From: Actinomycetes bacterium
GTDB lineage: Bacteria > Actinomycetota > Acidimicrobiia > Acidimicrobiales > Ilumatobacteraceae
Length of the DNA stretch: 64,000 nt
Assembly (NCBI GenBank): GCA_025360105.1
Contig: JANYCT010000057.1
Location: 62,001 to 126,000 of the forward strand
Direction: 5' to 3'
Shown: one piece after another, positions 5,513-26,657 of the stretch
Layout: every line of letters begins with the position of its first letter
Position numbering within the stretch: position 1 is the first letter of the stretch
Notes under the pieces: model-generated
Databases searched by the model: none
What the model was told of the DNA's origin: nothing
Seen by the model: the letters and a program-made list of their open reading frames with translations, nothing else
Translations under genes and position numbers: made by a program

Positions 5513-5737
5513 AAGGACGACACGCTAGTGCCTCGCCACGTCGCAACACCCGTCGCCTCCACCGCTGTTCGTCAACGAATCGAAAAGTCCGGGTTGCCAT
5601 TCCCTGAGCGCGATCGACAAGAACCGCTCAAGGAAGCGACGTTGCGTGTCGATATTGCCATGCAGCGTTCGTTCGCGGCGGGACACAGCACAGGCACAGT
5701 GAGAAGCGGGAAGCCACGTCATGCAGTTCGGGACACC

Positions 5738-8700
5738 ATGAGTCGGTTGACGAACCCAACCCCACTCTCGCGGCGCGAGGCTGGGGCCGACGGCCGCGCC
5801 GATGCTCCCGCAGGCGCAGTCCACCGCCTCGGTCGCCAGATCGCCGTACTCGCCCTCGTCACCGGATTCGCCTACCTCGCGTGGCGCAGCGTCTGGTCGT
5901 GGCATAGTTCGGGTACCACGATCGCGTGGTGGTTGGCAGTACCGGCACTTGCCGTGGAGGTCACCGGCTTTGTTGTTGTCTCAGTGTTGTTCTGGGCCCT
6001 GTGGCGCCACCCCCGGATGCAGCCATCCAGCCATCACGGCACCAACAACATCGAGCCCGATCAACTCGACGAGATGATGCATCCCGACTTCGATGTCGCG
6101 ATCATCGCCACCGACGGGAGCGTGGAGGATCTTCGCGTCACCCTCGTGTCGTTGCGATTCGACCCATCGACACCGCGCGCATTGGTCATCGATCACGCAG
6201 GCCGGCCCGAAACAGTGCTCCTCGCAGCTGAGTTCGATGCCAACTATCGCGTTCCTGATCCCACCGACGTCTCCGGTCTCTCCGCCGCCGTCGCGGCATC
6301 GCAACACGCGTTCTTCTTGCTCTTGAACAGCGGCGACATCCCAGCAATCGGTGCTGCCCAATCACTGCGCGAGTGGATGACCACCGATGACATCGCCGTC
6401 GTACAGGGCGTGGTCACTGCGACTCCGGGAGACTCGGTCGAGCACGGGCCGAATGGACGCCACGACCTCACCTTCGAGCGCAGCGGCCTGAACCCTGGGC
6501 TGGGAGCACGTGGTACGGGAATTCTGACAGGGAGCGGCGCGCTCATTCGCCGCGCCGCGTTGCGCGACATCGAATTCAGCCAGAACTCGCGACAGAGTGC
6601 GCTGTGGGAAATAATGCCGTTGCTTGCAGCGCACGGCGCGCGCGTTGTGGCCGCCGGTGGCCATGCGGTGGTCGCCGCAAAGCCGCTCACCTCGGCGCCT
6701 GCCGCTGCACTCAGTCGTCGATCACAGGCCGATGCCGGTTGGCGCCTGTTCACCGGACCGAATGGGGCATTGCGCTCCCGTGGGCTGCGCTGGCGGGATC
6801 GCCTTGCGTTGGCTGCCTGGGCAGCGCGATCGCTCGACGGGTTACGCAGGGTGGTACTTGGTGCGATCGTTCTCGGTGCGCTCCTCGCAGGCCGCTCACC
6901 GTTCGCGCCGTCACCCGGGCCCATCCTGTATCTCTGGGCGCCCGCATTCGTTCTGGCGTCGGTTGCCTTGGCGCTGCTGTCTGGCGGCACACTGCGGCCA
7001 GGCGATCGCGTACGCGGCTCGGTGCGAGCAGTGGGGTTGTCGATCGCGCTCGTCGTCGCGATCAACTCGGTGCTCGTGATCCGTGGCATCTCGGATCGCT
7101 TCACCCACGCGCTCCATCCACTCGATCACACCACCCAGATCGGTCTGTCGGTCATTTCGCTGTGGCTCCTGGCGGGGTCGCTGGACTCGCTCCGCCTGCT
7201 CGCACGCCGTCGTCAGAACCGGCGCGCGATCCGCTTGGCAGCATCCGGTACTGGTCGCCTCGACGAGTTGGGCGTCTACGTCTCCGACATCACCATGCTC
7301 GGCGCAGGACTTCTCTCGGACCAGCCTGTCGCAATTGGTGGTCGACATCGTCTGGCGTTCTCGGTGCCGAGTGAGTCGGGCATCACCTCCATCGAGGTGT
7401 CGTGCGTCGTTCGCAACGCACGACCTGACCTCGTGAGCACCTGGAGAATCGGCGTGGAGTTCGAAGACGTTGACACCTACGCCTTGAACACCCTTGCCGA
7501 ATGCTGCGCTGTGATGCCTGCGCGCGCGGCTCTTGCTGGAGCCGAGCCTGCGCCCGGGGTGTTCGATGAGCCCGCCGCGGCACATGTGGCTCCCCGTCGA
7601 CTCGCACTTCAATTTGCCACTCTGCTCGCGCTCGCCGGCGTCGTCTCGTCCGCCGCACCGATCAATGCCGAAGCCAGCCCGCCAACGACACGCCTCGTGT
7701 CCGGCGAAGTCGTCGACGTCGGTGAGGCCCCGGTCCTGCCGCAGCCGACCCAGACCAGCACGACGCCCGGCACGACCGGGACGAAACCGAGCAACACAAC
7801 CGTCGCCAGCCCAGCGCCCGTCAGCACAGCCACCATCGCCACGAACCCGGATCCGGTCAGCACCGACTCGCCCCCCCTCGAGTCCGCGCAGCCGATCGAT
7901 CCGATCGTGACCGACCCCGCGACTTCGGAGGTGCCCCCCGCCTCCGAAGTCGCGGGTGGAAACAACCACAGCGACCTCAGCGGTATCACGGTCGTCGGCG
8001 TGTGCTCGTCGGATGCCGGCAACGACGGGGTTTTCGGCACGAATGACGACACGTACGGTGCGACAGTGAGCACCATCACTGACCGACGGGGCAGCTACAA
8101 CCTCACGCTTGACGGACTCGCCTGCTGGGTGTCGATCGAGCCGCCGCTGCAAGCCATACAAGCGTCTTCGACCATCGCCGGACCTCAGGTGGGCCGCGCC
8201 GCGCTCGTCGATTTCACAGGTACCGGTCGAGTCGCAATGGCTCCGGTACGGATCACCCGCACCCCACTGCCGAGCGCGGGCCCCGCGGCGGCCGCCAAGC
8301 AGACCGGCGCGATCGGCGATCTCGTCTGGATGGATCGGAATGCCGACGGCATTCGCCAACGTGATGAGGCCGGCGTGGCGAAGGCAACGATCACGCTCTA
8401 CAGCGCCATGGGGAAGACCGTCGATACCACGGTCACGGGCGCCGACGGCACCTTCCTGTTCGATCGGCTCGGTGCAGGCATGTACAGCTTGGGAGTGTCG
8501 AACCTGCCCGTCGGGCTGCGCGTGCCCAGCGTCGACCCATTGACCTCGCGCACACCGCTCGTGTCGTTGCAACCCGGTCAGAGACTGTCGGCAGCCGATG
8601 TGGGCGTGGTCCCCGAGGCGGCGTCGGCTTTGCGCCCGTCGACCGTCGTTGCGCTGCCGGCGCCGTCGAGCGACCAGCTCGACCCTGCCGGCCGTTCAGG

Positions 8701-8812
8701 CTCGTCGGGATTGCCGACGTTGCTCGTCATCTTGATGGCGGCGATGCTCGGCGGCAGCATCGTGTTTGCCTCGGCGCAACCTATTCGTGGTCGTCGCCCG
8801 ACTTCGCGATGA
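5738..8812 (+). CDS. Multidomain membrane protein: degenerate GT2 (BcsA-like) + PilZ + SdrD_B-like repeats + C-terminal TM
   Basis: GT2-like region lacking canonical DXD/TED; RRRQNRR...SDITMLG (PilZ RxxxR and D-x-[ST]-x-x-G); IGDLVWMDRNADGIRQRDEAGVAKATITLYS (SdrD_B-like). Confidence 0.75.
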   Translation: MSRLTNPTPLSRREAGADGRADAPAGAVHRLGRQIAVLALVTGFAYLAWRSVWSWHSSGTTIAWWLAVPALAVEVTGFVVVSVLFWALWRHPRMQPSSHHGTNNIEPDQLDEMMHPDFDVAIIATDGSVEDLRVTLVSLRFDPSTPRALVIDHAGRPETVLLAAEFDANYRVPDPTDVSGLSAAVAASQHAFFLLLNSGDIPAIGAAQSLREWMTTDDIAVVQGVVTATPGDSVEHGPNGRHDLTFERSGLNPGLGARGTGILTGSGALIRRAALRDIEFSQNSRQSALWEIMPLLAAHGARVVAAGGHAVVAAKPLTSAPAAALSRRSQADAGWRLFTGPNGALRSRGLRWRDRLALAAWAARSLDGLRRVVLGAIVLGALLAGRSPFAPSPGPILYLWAPAFVLASVALALLSGGTLRPGDRVRGSVRAVGLSIALVVAINSVLVIRGISDRFTHALHPLDHTTQIGLSVISLWLLAGSLDSLRLLARRRQNRRAIRLAASGTGRLDELGVYVSDITMLGAGLLSDQPVAIGGRHRLAFSVPSESGITSIEVSCVVRNARPDLVSTWRIGVEFEDVDTYALNTLAECCAVMPARAALAGAEPAPGVFDEPAAAHVAPRRLALQFATLLALAGVVSSAAPINAEASPPTTRLVSGEVVDVGEAPVLPQPTQTSTTPGTTGTKPSNTTVASPAPVSTATIATNPDPVSTDSPPLESAQPIDPIVTDPATSEVPPASEVAGGNNHSDLSGITVVGVCSSDAGNDGVFGTNDDTYGATVSTITDRRGSYNLTLDGLACWVSIEPPLQAIQASSTIAGPQVGRAALVDFTGTGRVAMAPVRITRTPLPSAGPAAAAKQTGAIGDLVWMDRNADGIRQRDEAGVAKATITLYSAMGKTVDTTVTGADGTFLFDRLGAGMYSLGVSNLPVGLRVPSVDPLTSRTPLVSLQPGQRLSAADVGVVPEAASALRPSTVVALPAPSSDQLDPAGRSGSSGLPTLLVILMAAMLGGSIVFASAQPIRGRRPTSR

Positions 8813-10073: not shown

Positions 10074-10316
10074 GTGGCTATTCTGCGACTGTTTGCATCG
10101 GCCCGCGAGGCAGCAGGCACAGGCCGCGACGACCTGCCGGGGCTGACTGTCGGCGAGTTGCTCGCCACCGCCGAGCTTCGCTACGGGGCCGCGTTCGGCG
10201 CCGTGCTGAGGAGCTGTCGTATTTGGGTCAACGGAGAATCGGCAACCGCCGATACGGTCATTTCCGCTCGTGACGAAGTGGCGGTTCTGCCACCGGTGTC
10301 GGGCGGAGCGGTGTGA
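10074..10316 (+). CDS. MoaD/ThiS family sulfur carrier-like protein
   Basis: LRLFASAREAAG...VNGE...DEVAVLPPVSGGAV; GG near C-terminus followed by AV. Confidence 0.85.
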   Translation: MAILRLFASAREAAGTGRDDLPGLTVGELLATAELRYGAAFGAVLRSCRIWVNGESATADTVISARDEVAVLPPVSGGAV

Positions 10317-10325
10317 GGAGAATTC

Positions 10326-10820
10326 ATGGACAGCCCAACTATCGACCCATCTGCGCTGAGTCTCGCCGAGCTGCGTGCCATGCGCGCGGCGCTACAGGCC
10401 GACGATGATGCGATCAGCTACGTCCGTCGCCTCGTGCAGGCCAGGCTCGATCTGGTGCTCGCGGAGCAGAACCGGCGCGTCAGCGGCGACAGCCGCGATG
10501 TATCCGAGGACCTTCCCGCGATCCTCGGGCGACACCTCACCGGCGGCCCGGCCCGACCCCCTCGCCCCACCGAGGACGCGAGCGAGCATCCCTTGGCTAT
10601 TGAGCTCGACGAATTGTGCACCGGACTCGGCGCAAATCACGTGACCGAACTCGACGACGCGCAACTGCAGCAGTTGTCATCGAGTCTCGAGGCCTTCGAA
10701 CAGGCGCGGTCGCACGAACGGCGCGACCTGTTCGGCAGACTCGACGCACTCAGTGCCGAGCTCGTGCGGCGCTATCGAGACGGTGAAGCCAGCGTCGACG
10801 GTTTGCTGGCCGACGAGTGA
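10326..10820 (+). CDS. rsiG: RsiG-like c-di-GMP-binding anti-sigma factor (twin motif)
   Basis: Motif 1 D27-X3-S31-X2-R34-X3-Q38-X3-D42 (DDAISYVRRLVQARLD); motif 2 E125-X3-S129-X2-R132-X3-F136-X3-D140; compare E(X)3S(X)2R(X)3Q(X)3D of Streptomyces RsiG. Flanking SLAELRAMR and AELVRRYRDG also look family-like. Confidence 0.82.
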   Translation: MDSPTIDPSALSLAELRAMRAALQADDDAISYVRRLVQARLDLVLAEQNRRVSGDSRDVSEDLPAILGRHLTGGPARPPRPTEDASEHPLAIELDELCTGLGANHVTELDDAQLQQLSSSLEAFEQARSHERRDLFGRLDALSAELVRRYRDGEASVDGLLADE

Positions 10821-11194
10821 CGCCTCCGACCGGGGCGGCACCCGAGTTCCGCCACGAGATCGGCGATCGTCTGGCCGACGTCGGCGATTTCATCCGCAGC
10901 CAGCGCGAGACCGCGCGCATGTCGGTGCGACGCCTTGCCGAACTCGCCGAAGTCTCCAACCCGTACCTTTCACAAATCGAGCGTGGCCTTCGCCGACCAT
11001 CTGCGGAAATCCTCCAACAGATTGCCAAGGCATTGAAGATCTCCGTCGAGACCTTGTACGTTCGCGCGGGAATCCTCGCGGACCAGACGTCTCCGGCTAT
11101 CGGAGTGCGCGAAGCCATCGGTAGTGACCCGTGGCTCACTTCAGAGCAGAAGCAAGCGCTGCTCAACGTGTACGAGAGCTTTGTGGCCCAGTAG
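10817..11194 (+). CDS. XRE-family helix-turn-helix regulator
   Basis: IRSQRETARMSVRRLAELAEVSNPYLSQIERGLRRPSAEILQQIAKAL; GTGA overlap with rsiG-like stop. Confidence 0.9.
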   Translation: MTPPTGAAPEFRHEIGDRLADVGDFIRSQRETARMSVRRLAELAEVSNPYLSQIERGLRRPSAEILQQIAKALKISVETLYVRAGILADQTSPAIGVREAIGSDPWLTSEQKQALLNVYESFVAQ

Positions 11195-11388
11195 CGCTGC
11201 GCCGCGTTCGCCACGTTGCATCACTCGTTGTGCTGGCCTGTGGCCGTTGTGCCACGTGAATCGTCTTGAATCGGGCAAGTTCGTACCTGATTCTCATGTT
11301 CCTCGATCGGTCTGTCGATGGATTCGTCGGAATGCGAGCGGGCGTCTTCCTCAAGCACAGCATCAACAAGCGAGAGGGCAGTACAACC

Positions 11389-11793
11389 ATGACCGGCACA
11401 ACACAGCATCGGAATAGCAGAAGCGTCCACGACGCACGAACGAACGACGGATTCACGCTCGTGGAGTTGTTGATCGTGATCGTAATTTTGGGCATTCTTG
11501 CCACCGTCACCGTCTTCGCGGTGAGAGGTATTACCGACAAGGGCAAAACCAGCGCGTGCGCTGCTGACAAAAAGACCATCGAGAGTGCCGTCGAAGCATA
11601 CTTCGCGCAATACGGCGGCGCGACCATTCCTGTCACTCCCGCAGTAGCGCCTGCCGGAGCCACGTGGACCACGGGTGCTACACCCGATGACACCTTGGTG
11701 AGCGCTGGACTGCTGCGCGCGGTTTCGTCTGACTACACCACGAGCGCCGATGGGGCAACGCTGACGCCAGTCGTCGGCTCTTCGTGTCCCTGA
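11389..11793 (+). CDS. Type IV pilin (prepilin)
   Basis: Class III signal peptide TNDG|FTLVELLIVIVILGILATVTVFAV; C-terminal Cys pair candidates. Confidence 0.92.
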   Translation: MTGTTQHRNSRSVHDARTNDGFTLVELLIVIVILGILATVTVFAVRGITDKGKTSACAADKKTIESAVEAYFAQYGGATIPVTPAVAPAGATWTTGATPDDTLVSAGLLRAVSSDYTTSADGATLTPVVGSSCP

Positions 11794-11819
11794 TTCACAA
11801 TTCCCAGCCCACAACAACG

Positions 11820-11853
11820 AAAGGACCCGGCGGTCACCACCGTCGGGCCCTTT
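11820..11853 (+). terminator. Rho-independent-like terminator after the pilin
   Basis: AAAGGACCCGGCGGT-CACC-ACCGTCGGGCCCTTT; A-tract before, T-tract after. Confidence 0.75.
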
Positions 11854-11910: not shown

Positions 11911-13122
11911 GTGCAACGGGTAGCTGTGCTCTCTCTCCATACCTCGCCTCTGGCCCAGCCGGGCTCGGGTGACAGTGGCGGTATGAACGTGTACGTGCGC
12001 GAGTTGGTCTCCGCGTTGGCTCAGGCCGGCGTCGATTGCACCACCTATACGCGTGCGTCGCGGCCGGGCCTTCCCGAGGTCGTGCAGGTCGAACCGGGAC
12101 ACCGCGTCGTGCACCTCCCCGCCGGTCCGTTCGATCTGGCCAAAGAAGACCTGCCACACGTCGTCGACGAGTTCGGCGATGCGGTCATCGATCATCTCAA
12201 GAACGGCCCGGGCGCCGACGTCGTACACGCGAACTACTGGCTCAGCGGACTCGTGGCGCACCGCGTGAAGCACGAACTCGAACTGCCCTTCGTGAGCACG
12301 TTCCACACCTTGGCGCGAGTGAAGGCCGAGGGCGGCGATCCGGAACCTGCGTGGCGCGAACGTGCCGAGGCTGAGATCATCAACTGCGCCGACGCCATCT
12401 GCGTCAGCTGCACCGAAGAGGAAAGCCAGTTCCGCCGCCTCTACGGCAATCCTCAGGGTCGCATCGAGATCGTCGCACCCGGCGTGGAGCACGCGTTCTT
12501 CGCACCCGGCGACAAACGCGGTGCTCGGCACGCGCTGGGCTTCGGCGCCGGACCGATGCTGCTGTTCGTCGGGCGAATCCAGCCGCTGAAGGGACTCGAC
12601 GTTGCAGTCCGCGCGCTCGCCGAACTGCGTCGCCCCGATGCGTGCCTTGTAGTCGTTGGCGGGGCCAGCGGCAACGAGGGCAGTGCCGAGGTCGCACGCA
12701 TCGGAGCAATCATCGACCAGCTCGGTGTCCGCGAGCAGGTGCGGTTCGTCGAGCCCCAGCCACACCACATCCTGTCCACCTACTACCGCGCAGCCGACGT
12801 GGTGGTTGTGCCGAGCCGCAGTGAGAGCTTCGGTCTCGTCGCGCTCGAGGCCGCCGCGTGTGGCATCCCCGTGGTCGCCAGCGCTGTCGGTGGTCTGCTC
12901 ACCCTCGTCGACGACGGCCTCACCGGCTACCTCGTGGCCGGACGCAATCCCTCACACTTCGCGTCGCGTATTTCGAGCATCCTCAACGATCCCGCACTCG
13001 CCGCGTCGATGAGCGTGCGCGCGGCCGAGCGCGCCCGCAGATACACGTGGAGCTTCGCTGCTGCCAGGTTGCGTCGCGTCTACACCGACCTCGCCGTGCG
13101 CGAGCTCGTCGCCTGCTCGTAG
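11911..13122 (+). CDS. mshA: D-inositol-3-phosphate glycosyltransferase (mycothiol biosynthesis)
   Basis: SLHTSPLAQPGSGDSGGMNVYVRELVSAL; VSTFHTLARVK; VGRIQPLKGLDVA; SRSESFGLVALEAAACG. Confidence 0.92.
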   Translation: MQRVAVLSLHTSPLAQPGSGDSGGMNVYVRELVSALAQAGVDCTTYTRASRPGLPEVVQVEPGHRVVHLPAGPFDLAKEDLPHVVDEFGDAVIDHLKNGPGADVVHANYWLSGLVAHRVKHELELPFVSTFHTLARVKAEGGDPEPAWRERAEAEIINCADAICVSCTEEESQFRRLYGNPQGRIEIVAPGVEHAFFAPGDKRGARHALGFGAGPMLLFVGRIQPLKGLDVAVRALAELRRPDACLVVVGGASGNEGSAEVARIGAIIDQLGVREQVRFVEPQPHHILSTYYRAADVVVVPSRSESFGLVALEAAACGIPVVASAVGGLLTLVDDGLTGYLVAGRNPSHFASRISSILNDPALAASMSVRAAERARRYTWSFAAARLRRVYTDLAVRELVACS

Positions 13123-23394: not shown

Positions 23395-24134
23395 CGCCGT
23401 TGCCACTCGCCGGACGACGGGTGGTGATCACGCGTGCAGCCGATCAGGTCGCGCCGTTGGCCCAACGCCTCGTCGCCCTTGGTGTCGAACCGATCGTCAT
23501 GCCGCTGATCGAGATCGTCGACCCATCCGATGGTGGCGTTGCCCTGCGAGATGCGCTCGACCGCCTGTCCGATTTCGATTGGCTCGTCGTCACGTCGCCA
23601 AACGGTGCCGAACGAGTGAGCCGCGCCGTGGCTGCGCTGGGGCACAACCGCCCGCGTCTGGCGGCCGTCGGCACGACCACCGCGGCGGCGCTCAGTGTGG
23701 CACCGGATCTGGTGCCACAACGCCAGATCACCCACGGATTGCTCGACGAGTTCGCCATCGGCGACGGGCGCGTGCTCATCGCCCAAGCCGAGTCGGCCGA
23801 GCCCGACCTCGCCGAGGGCCTCGCCACAAAGGGCTGGACCGTCGAAGTCGTCGCCGCGTACCGAACAGTTGCGACGAACCCCAGTCGCGCCTCGAACTCG
23901 GCGTTGCTGCTGGCAGTTCTCTCCGCCGACGCTGTGCTGTTCGCCAGCGGCTCTGCCGTTCGCGCCTGGATCGACGTACTCGGCTCTGCCACACCGCCGG
24001 TCGTCATCGCGATCGGTCCTGCAACGGCGTCGGTGGCCGAGCGTCTGGGGCTCAAGGTGAGCGCCATTTCGGCCGATCACTCTGTTGACGGACTGGTGGC
24101 CTGCCTACAGGACTATCTACTCGGTCATGGATAG
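23391..24134 (+). CDS. hemD: Uroporphyrinogen-III synthase
   Basis: VVITRAADQVAPLAQRLVALGVE; DWLVVTSPNGAERV; ATGA overlap with hemC. Confidence 0.9.
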   Translation: MTPLPLAGRRVVITRAADQVAPLAQRLVALGVEPIVMPLIEIVDPSDGGVALRDALDRLSDFDWLVVTSPNGAERVSRAVAALGHNRPRLAAVGTTTAAALSVAPDLVPQRQITHGLLDEFAIGDGRVLIAQAESAEPDLAEGLATKGWTVEVVAAYRTVATNPSRASNSALLLAVLSADAVLFASGSAVRAWIDVLGSATPPVVIAIGPATASVAERLGLKVSAISADHSVDGLVACLQDYLLGHG

Positions 24135-24200
24135 AGTGGCGACCACGATTGACCGGTGATCTCCATCCTCAGGCGCACGGGCGAGGCACACAGCATTCAC

Positions 24201-26657
24201 ATGACACGACGACACGATCCAGGGCACGACGCGTGCCACGAGGCAGCCCACGGCGCACGGCGCTGGGCTCTCGGCGGGGGCATTGCGGCGATTGCTGCCG
24301 TGAGCCTCGGCTGGTTTGTCGCGCCGGTGCCAGTGGCGGCACGGATCGTGGCCACGACGGTGCCGTTCTCGGTCGTGTCGCCGACGGTCGCCGACAACCC
24401 GACCACCTCGGGCGACGGCCGCATGGTGGTGTTCACCTCCGCGCCGCCCACGGCCGACGGACGCACCAGCAGCGTGTGGCTGAACGACCGCGGTATCGGC
24501 CAACTCGTCGAACTCACCAAACCGAGAGCCGGCATCCGTCTGGGCAACAGCGTACTTCCGGTGATCAGCGCCGATGGTTGCGTCGTCGCGGTCACCACCG
24601 AGATGGCTTTTGACCTTTTTCGCGACGAGGACCGTGGCAGCCGCTGGGATGTCTACCGCGCCATACTTCCCGCCTGCGGTGGCACCCCCAACGATTGGGA
24701 GCTCGTCTCTACCATCACCGGCGTCGATGGTCAGGGCCAGGCACGGGGCGATGTCGATCCGACTCAGCCCATCGCACTCTCGGGTAGCGGCTCCGTCGTT
24801 GCCTACGCCCATCCGTTCAAGTCACTGTCGGGCAACGACGACCCCCTCCATCGACCCACAGCCATTGACGTGGTCGATCTCACCAAGCTGATCGATCAGC
24901 CCGGTCGGTCTACAGCGGCTGCTGGCCTGCCCGCAGAGGCAGCAGGCAACGGTGCGATGTATGTCGGCCAACGCACTCCGGCGTTGTCCGGCGACGGCAA
25001 CATTGTGGTGTTCAGCTCCGACGCGAACTCCAACGAGGCCGTACCCGATTGGGTTCCACCGGCCACTGGTGCCACGACGGCCCCGAGTCAGATATTTGCG
25101 TGGGACCGCGCCGACCCAGACCCGTTCAAGGCTGTCGTACTCGTGTCGAAGGGGGTGCGCGGCGCGGCCAACGCTGGAGCGCTCACACCTGCGGTGTCGG
25201 CAGATGGCCGTCACATCGCCTTCACATCGGCCGCATCCAACTTGGTCAACTCGGCGAGTTTCGCCGCCTGCGGCAGCGCCTGCCCATCGCAGATCTATGC
25301 CGTTGATCGCGACACCGACTCGAACTACATCTTCGATGAAGTCGGTGCAACCGATATCAGTCTCGTCAGCCGGGTGTCCGCCCCCCGCGGTGAGCCAATA
25401 ACAGCGGCGAATGGCATGTCCGCCGCACCCACGATGTCGGCCGACGGCAACACCATTGCCTTCTCAACGCAAGCGTCGAATCTGTTGCAGATACAAACGC
25501 CGGGTGGGGGCGAGGCCAGCGACGGCGACTTGCTCGTGGCCGATCTCGGCACGGGTCAATTACGCCGAGCGTTCGATAGCCCGGCGCCGGCACCCGGTGC
25601 GCATGCGCACCCTCATCTGTCTGCAAACGGGCGCGTGCTTGTCGCCGATTCGCTCGTTGCCGATCGGCTCATCGGCGATCCCACCATCATCGGACGGCGT
25701 GTGGTGTCTGCAACGCTGGCCCCCCATCTCAGCATTGCTGAAGGCGATCTCGGCACGGTCACCGTGGGTGTGCCCGGACCGGAATGGTACGTCAACGTCG
25801 TCAACGACGGTCCCGGCGCTTTCGTGCCCGCCACTGCCACCAGCGACACGCCCGACTTCGCTGTTACGGGTGGCTCGTGTCTCGATCATTCGCCCGTGCC
25901 TGCAGGTAAGAGCTGCTCGGTGTACGTACTGCTCACCCCGTCCGTGAGTGGTCCCATCACCGGCAAACTCACCGTTGCCGAGGCAGGTTTTGGCGCCATC
26001 ACGCTCACGACCCCACTGAAAGGTGCCGGTGGTGAGCCGGCCCTCCAGGCCACGCCCTCCGGCGCCGACTTCGAACGCACGCTCATCGGAGCCACGAGCC
26101 CACCGAGCATCATCATGGTCGCCAACGTCTATGTCGGACCGTCGGTCGTCAGCAGCGTCACGGTCAGCGGAGCGAATCCATTCGACTTTGCGGTCGTGCT
26201 CAATGGCTGCCAGAACGTGCTCAACCTCGGCGAAAGCTGCCCGGTGGTAGTCGCGTTCGCACCAATCGCTTCCGGACGTCGAACGGCGACGATCAACGTC
26301 GGCACTTCCGCGGGTCAGTACACCAGCATCTTCGTCAGCGGCCAGGGTTACTACGCACCGTCGTTGACCACCACCGGAAATGCGCGGCCCGGATCGCGGC
26401 TCGGCATCGGCGGCAGCGGCTTCCCCGCAAACGCCGGGGTACTGATCAGCTGGGGCGATGGCGCCGGTCGTTCCACAATCGCTGCAACCGATGGCGCCGG
26501 TGCCTTCGTCACCACAATGCTCATTCCAAAGGGCGAGCGGGCTGGCACGCGAACCTTGGTGGCTCAGGCAGCAGGCGGCACCATCGCGAGCGTCACGCTC
26601 GACGTGCAACGCACTGCGATCGCTGGGCCGGCATCAGCCTCGTGGCCGCGTCCCTGA
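24201..26657 (+). CDS. Secreted TolB/WD40-like beta-propeller protein with choice-of-anchor D-type domains
   Basis: Signal/TM N-terminus; repeated SADGRHIAFTS-type blades (FTSAASNLV, STQASNLL); Ig-like repeats in the C-terminal half. Confidence 0.75.
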   Translation: MTRRHDPGHDACHEAAHGARRWALGGGIAAIAAVSLGWFVAPVPVAARIVATTVPFSVVSPTVADNPTTSGDGRMVVFTSAPPTADGRTSSVWLNDRGIGQLVELTKPRAGIRLGNSVLPVISADGCVVAVTTEMAFDLFRDEDRGSRWDVYRAILPACGGTPNDWELVSTITGVDGQGQARGDVDPTQPIALSGSGSVVAYAHPFKSLSGNDDPLHRPTAIDVVDLTKLIDQPGRSTAAAGLPAEAAGNGAMYVGQRTPALSGDGNIVVFSSDANSNEAVPDWVPPATGATTAPSQIFAWDRADPDPFKAVVLVSKGVRGAANAGALTPAVSADGRHIAFTSAASNLVNSASFAACGSACPSQIYAVDRDTDSNYIFDEVGATDISLVSRVSAPRGEPITAANGMSAAPTMSADGNTIAFSTQASNLLQIQTPGGGEASDGDLLVADLGTGQLRRAFDSPAPAPGAHAHPHLSANGRVLVADSLVADRLIGDPTIIGRRVVSATLAPHLSIAEGDLGTVTVGVPGPEWYVNVVNDGPGAFVPATATSDTPDFAVTGGSCLDHSPVPAGKSCSVYVLLTPSVSGPITGKLTVAEAGFGAITLTTPLKGAGGEPALQATPSGADFERTLIGATSPPSIIMVANVYVGPSVVSSVTVSGANPFDFAVVLNGCQNVLNLGESCPVVVAFAPIASGRRTATINVGTSAGQYTSIFVSGQGYYAPSLTTTGNARPGSRLGIGGSGFPANAGVLISWGDGAGRSTIAATDGAGAFVTTMLIPKGERAGTRTLVAQAAGGTIASVTLDVQRTAIAGPASASWPRP

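Follow-up and report, generated by a model that had tools for sequence, protein, structure and literature searches.

A putative twin-motif RsiG–WhiG switch with a predicted type IV pilus and c-di-GMP regulon in an uncultured member of the Ilumatobacteraceae

Our analysis identified a 164 amino acid protein of an uncultured actinobacterium (Acidimicrobiales; Ilumatobacteraceae) that, judged from sequence and structural modelling, is a genuine twin-motif RsiG, and the promoter evidence gathered from related genomes suggests that it acts with the sigma factor WhiG on c-di-GMP enzymes and type IV pili instead of sporulation. The gene lies in a stretch of 64,000 nucleotides of contig JANYCT010000057.1 (assembly GCA_025360105.1), referred to here as the window, whose relevant features are collected in Table 1.

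Table 1. Features of the window around rsiG, with coordinates counted from its first nucleotide.
Feature	Coordinates	Strand	Basis or remark
Box of WhiG type, CTCAAG-N15-GTCGATA (one mismatch)	5627..5654	+	Some 80 bp 5' of the probable PilZ-gene ATG
Predicted target of WhiG: membrane protein that combines PilZ (c-di-GMP receptor) and SdrD_B domains	5735..8812	+	Domains; box upstream
MoaD-like gene, directly 5' of rsiG, in the conserved block	10074..10316	+	ThiS/MoaD; kept gene order
rsiG, predicted twin-motif c-di-GMP-dependent anti-sigma factor for WhiG	10326..10820	+	164 aa; Pfam, 6pfj match, AlphaFold, Foldseek
Motif 1, D27-S31-R34-Q38-D42	10404..10451	+	Sequence; carried by helix 13–53
Motif 2, E125-S129-R132-F136-D140	10698..10745	+	Sequence; carried by helix 111–151
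XRE-family regulator	10817..11194	+	Pfam HTH_3, E 2.9e-13; GTG start at 10817, 4-bp overlap with rsiG
Type IV pilin-like protein, class III signal	11389..11793	+	N_methyl, E 2.9e-8
mshA-like glycosyltransferase gene, conserved right flank of the rsiG block	11911..13122	+	Gene order; family named by sequence resemblance

RsiG and its sigma factor

The protein matches the Pfam RsiG family (PF22802) in two stretches, with a score of 88.7 bits against a cut-off of 27 (E 2e-25). A phmmer search aligned its residues 9–162 with RsiG of Streptomyces venezuelae (6pfj; E 6e-15), the next matches being the single-motif RsiG of Rubrobacter (7lq2–7lq4). When set against the consensus E(X)3S(X)2R(X)3Q(X)3D, both motifs keep the spacing and the S, R, and D residues; the departures are D for E in motif 1 and F for Q in motif 2, both of which are common in the family. 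S31, R34, D42, E125, S129, and R132 are invariant in a 36-sequence alignment of RsiG proteins, and D140 is nearly so. An AlphaFold2 model (36-sequence alignment as input; mean pLDDT 91) places each motif on one of two long helices, and a Foldseek search of the PDB with this model gave four significant matches, all of them to S. venezuelae RsiG (6pfv/6pfj; TM 0.69–0.74). The initial annotation had described a twin-motif RsiG-like protein here and had proposed a profile search and a predicted coiled coil carrying both motifs as checks; the Pfam score and the RsiG fold given by the two motif helices agree with that description.

As the same annotation had noted, the window contains no whiG. The gene sits on another contig (C26:68083-68739) and encodes the single sigma factor in the genome above the FliA_WhiG cut-off (253 bits, E 4e-75), so that a sigma factor of the WhiG/FliA type, on whose presence the annotation had made its reading depend, is at hand. 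It is flanked by a xerC-like gene on one side and by an M23 peptidase-rpsB pair on the other, which by gene order is the canonical dprA-xerC-whiG-rpsB place. The protein aligns with S. venezuelae WhiG (6pfv; E 3.5e-74) and conserves the equivalents of the c-di-GMP-contacting residues K57, G61, and R62, while E. coli FliA has neither the K nor the G equivalent in the same alignment output. Across 246 genomes of the class, 159 encode both RsiG and WhiG, 77 encode neither, 4 encode RsiG only, and 6 encode WhiG only; with 10 discordant genomes the pairing is close to strict, these counts not being independent by descent.

A WhiG-type promoter box and the genes behind it

A box of sigma-28 type, CTCAAG-N15-NCCGATA, recurs in the pilus loci of relatives. 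The expected number of boxes was taken from the same half-sites at ten other spacers, a control that replaced reading the pattern backwards because the latter is biased by coding composition. Because pilus regions had supplied the box before it was counted genome-wide, its form is tuned on in-family data, and the independent test is the excess across the class together with the way this excess depends on WhiG. At 12 fixed bases, genomes of the class with WhiG contain 250 boxes against 26.1 expected (about 10-fold), those without WhiG contain 13 against 10.7, and those with PilB and without WhiG contain 2 against 2.0, a comparison tempered by further differences between WhiG-positive and WhiG-negative genomes, namely in phylogeny, size, and composition. 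Within the family, the count used 11 fixed bases (TCAAG-N16-CCGATA) and gave 51 boxes against 4.1 expected in the eight genomes with both PilB and WhiG, and none against 1.2 expected in G206, which has PilB and lacks both RsiG and WhiG.

The initial annotation had proposed a different promoter form, TAAA-N15-GCCGATAA, which is the Rubrobacter-type consensus. This form was discarded as the WhiG promoter, since it occurs 59 times in the genome against 78 in the backwards control and shows no excess in 18 family members; the enriched form is the one given above. Flagellar promoters of G051 were also considered as a source for the consensus and yielded no clear common box. That genome is exceptional among the surveyed family members in having a flagellar cluster with flagellin and FlhA (C13; L114, L115).

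In six relatives (G002, G143, G027, G019, G043, and G051; one mismatch in G027) the box precedes the first gene of a coiled-coil-pilB-pilC operon, and it is among the most consistently conserved boxes; none was found at the pil operon of the WhiG-less G206. The genome under study carries a one-base-shorter form at this operon (TTCAAG-N14-GCCGATCC), and its pilB-operon and pilin boxes, with their 14-nt spacer, are weaker than those of the relatives. Five of its 39 relaxed boxes fall inside the 15-kb pilus region (p 4.5e-7), boxes precede both the pilin of the pilus locus and a second pilin (C37), an exact box precedes a PAS-GGDEF-EAL gene, and exact or near-exact ones stand before a roadblock-GTPase operon and a coiled-coil gene. 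Gene starts that lie from a few to about 100 bases 3' of the boxes belong, among others, to the pilB operon, to genes for roadblock proteins, GTPases, and response regulators, to a UDP-sugar dehydrogenase gene, and to genes for many sensor proteins. Among 40 such proteins (several truncated at the end of the locus), GGDEF was the most frequent family (7), with EAL, T2SSE, and roadblock found in 2 each.

Within the window, the one-mismatch box before the PilZ gene upstream of rsiG has counterparts in the loci of nine relatives (G002, G043, G143 (exact), G051, L175, L181, L182, L184, and L185), and the PilZ protein would thus be a c-di-GMP receptor that itself belongs to the predicted WhiG regulon. 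A candidate box before rsiG itself (10227, two mismatches) was rejected, as it is not conserved in 15 relatives. Two further boxes were observed: an exact one, CTCAAG-N15-ACCGATAC, at 343-371 with no clear gene behind it (the 784 amino acid ORF that follows has no Pfam match), and a one-mismatch one, CTCAAG-N15-GCCGATCA, at 24051-24079, about 77 bp before a large ORF (24156-26657).

The boxes before the pilB operon, pilins, diguanylate cyclases, the roadblock-GTPase operon, and the PilZ gene thus support pilus control through promoters and not through gene linkage, so that of the pilus role put forward in the initial annotation the idea of control gains support and the argument from a neighboring pilin does not. 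The regulon, as read from the box counts, is wider than pili, since class-wide the genomes with WhiG and without PilB still hold 71 boxes against 9.9 expected. It could even be that the switch is real and its main output is a wider surface or envelope programme, made up of c-di-GMP enzymes, the PilZ protein, secreted proteins, and roadblock-GTPase signalling, with pili as an optional branch in larger genomes. The prominence of GGDEF proteins and the persisting enrichment in PilB-less genomes favor this reading, as does the lack of both PilB and FlhA in 53 of the 159 genomes with the pair (profile calls at E 1e-60 in genomes at least 80% complete, so that some absences are assembly gaps). We nonetheless consider it unlikely, although the strongest of the alternatives, because in-family enrichment is seen in genomes with PilB and not in the ten with WhiG and without PilB as a group (11 boxes against 9.0 expected, 11 fixed bases), and because the pilB-operon box is so consistently kept. 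Those ten members retain RsiG and WhiG without box enrichment, which argues that pili are not the whole story. They also lack FlhA (G008, G031, G039, G071, G091, G140, G175, G185, G204, and G220); several have small genomes, and the smallest show no detectable box excess.

Motif 2 and the neighborhood of rsiG

The initial annotation had regarded motif 2 as diverged (Q to F). The exchange turned out to be family-wide: the fourth position of the motif is F in 15 of 16 family members and Y in the remaining one, and elsewhere in the class it is F, H, or Q. For this reason F136 looks like a fixed aromatic variant, and not decay, at the position whose residue, Q in the solved RsiG structures, stacks on guanine; Phe or Tyr probably does the same here as Gln does in Streptomyces. 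Alternatively, the exchange at position 136 could have cost motif 2 its c-di-GMP binding, leaving a degenerate RsiG that binds WhiG ligand-free or not at all. The stacking role of Q would fit such a loss, as would the 2021 survey of RsiG, which found the motif strongly conserved and described Q to H in motif 1 as the sole exchange (PMC8325347). We hold this to be improbable, given that the family is fixed for F or Y, that the other residues of motif 2 vary hardly or not at all, and that an aromatic ring would be able to stack on guanine.

The gene order HisPase(-)-MoaD-RsiG-(XRE)-MshA-YbjN is kept across the family and the order, indicating an old block around rsiG. The XRE gene directly 3' of rsiG is frequent and not constant among these relatives, and its product presumably resembles the mycobacterial Rv0474 type. 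Its overlap with rsiG and the class III signal pilin 3' of it, whose ATG lies 194 bases past the XRE stop, were seen as the initial annotation described them. The genetic linkage that it took as an argument for a pilus role is another matter: no pilin occurs at the rsiG locus in 20 relatives of the family and order, nor in 13 named relatives that include the closest one (85% identical RsiG), the two sets sharing one locus and so amounting to 32 distinct loci. The window pilin shares 78% identity with a pilin that the same contig carries in its type IV pilus locus and looks, from this resemblance, like a dispersed paralogue of it. No WhiG-type box with at most two mismatches was found before it; a three-mismatch box with correct spacing lies at 11293-11320, about 70 bp 5' of its ATG, and by our estimate such a box arises by chance about once in every four or five such intervals. 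In G019 (L070 3877-6313), an NhaA-like antiporter gene and a glycosyltransferase-like gene, both named by sequence resemblance, lie between the XRE gene and mshA, and the junction thus tolerates unrelated insertions, of which the pilin here is another. That rsiG, the XRE gene, and the pilin belong to one linked module in which WhiG targets the local pilin, as their adjacency, common orientation, and the three-mismatch box might suggest, is therefore highly improbable in view of the pilin-free loci, the paralogue, and the chance expectation for that box, and by these comparisons the pilin is an incidental neighbor of rsiG.

Proposed switch and comparison with known systems

We consider it likely that the RsiG-WhiG switch exists with the CTCAAG-N15-NCCGATA regulon as proposed. 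The identity and fold of RsiG, the presence of WhiG, the co-inheritance of the two, and the enrichment of the box are read from sequence, and from there we infer binding, sequestration, the use of the box by WhiG, and the direction of control. RsiG would act as a monomer with two motifs. At high c-di-GMP, the two motif helices would hold a c-di-GMP dimer and, together with this ligand, the single WhiG of the genome, which would be kept off RNA polymerase; motif 2 would use Phe (Tyr in one relative) in place of the Streptomyces Gln, probably still stacking on guanine. Once c-di-GMP drops, WhiG would be freed to transcribe from its boxes the pilB-pilC operon and its pilins, the roadblock/GTPase operon, and the PilZ protein encoded 5' of rsiG, and the diguanylate cyclases and phosphodiesterases among its targets would provide feedback.

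The known biology of the twin-motif RsiG-WhiG is Streptomyces sporulation only, and pilus control has so far been proposed only for the single-motif Rubrobacter form. A regulon read from promoters in a third group, one that apparently does not sporulate, would bear on the first role of the switch, and it yields a short list of directly testable promoters. We see an even chance that, throughout the Acidimicrobiia, the twin-motif pair serves as a master switch of surface behavior that is gated by c-di-GMP and acts through this box, that pilus control is common to single- and twin-motif switches with Streptomyces sporulation as a later co-option, and that in one branch the ligand is read through an aromatic residue of motif 2. 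Surface behavior would then comprise type IV pili, roadblock-GTPase signalling, c-di-GMP enzymes, and a PilZ effector.

Twin-motif RsiG has already been reported in three of four Acidimicrobiales species, the same group and class as the present protein, in a study whose main text gives neither targets nor F or Y in motif 2 for them (PMC8325347). The protein family is therefore known and listed for this order; what is new, as far as a limited literature search goes, is the aromatic variant of motif 2, the form of the promoter, and the predicted regulon, all three of them computational. That search, which covered few subscription journals, found no literature on targets of RsiG or WhiG in the Acidimicrobiia.

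S. venezuelae RsiG (6PFJ) is likewise a monomeric twin-motif form, with the same fold and a full-length alignment, and S. venezuelae WhiG shares the c-di-GMP-contacting K, G, and R with the present WhiG. In contrast to S. venezuelae, motif 1 has D27 in place of E, motif 2 has F136 in place of Q, and the predicted regulon covers pili and c-di-GMP turnover instead of sporulation. In Actinoplanes missouriensis, flagellar and pilus genes are under the control of WhiG-like sigma factors, and its FliA/WhiG-like promoters (CTCA-N15-17-GCCGAA) are very similar to the box described here. Actinoplanes has no RsiG (PMC8325347).

A 2021 study described RsiG-WhiG as unique among sigma/anti-sigma pairs in being gated by c-di-GMP, and the complex of Rubrobacter radiotolerans has been solved as (RsiG)2-(c-di-GMP)2-WhiG (7LQ2-7LQ4; PMC8325347). 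Rubrobacter RsiG has one motif and forms a homodimer, whereas the present protein has two motifs, and the boxes reported there are TAAA and GCCGATAA in contrast to CTCAAG-N15-NCCGATA here; as in our analysis, type IV pilus operons and GGDEF/EAL genes with sigma-28-like promoters are among the targets predicted for Rubrobacter (PMC8325347).
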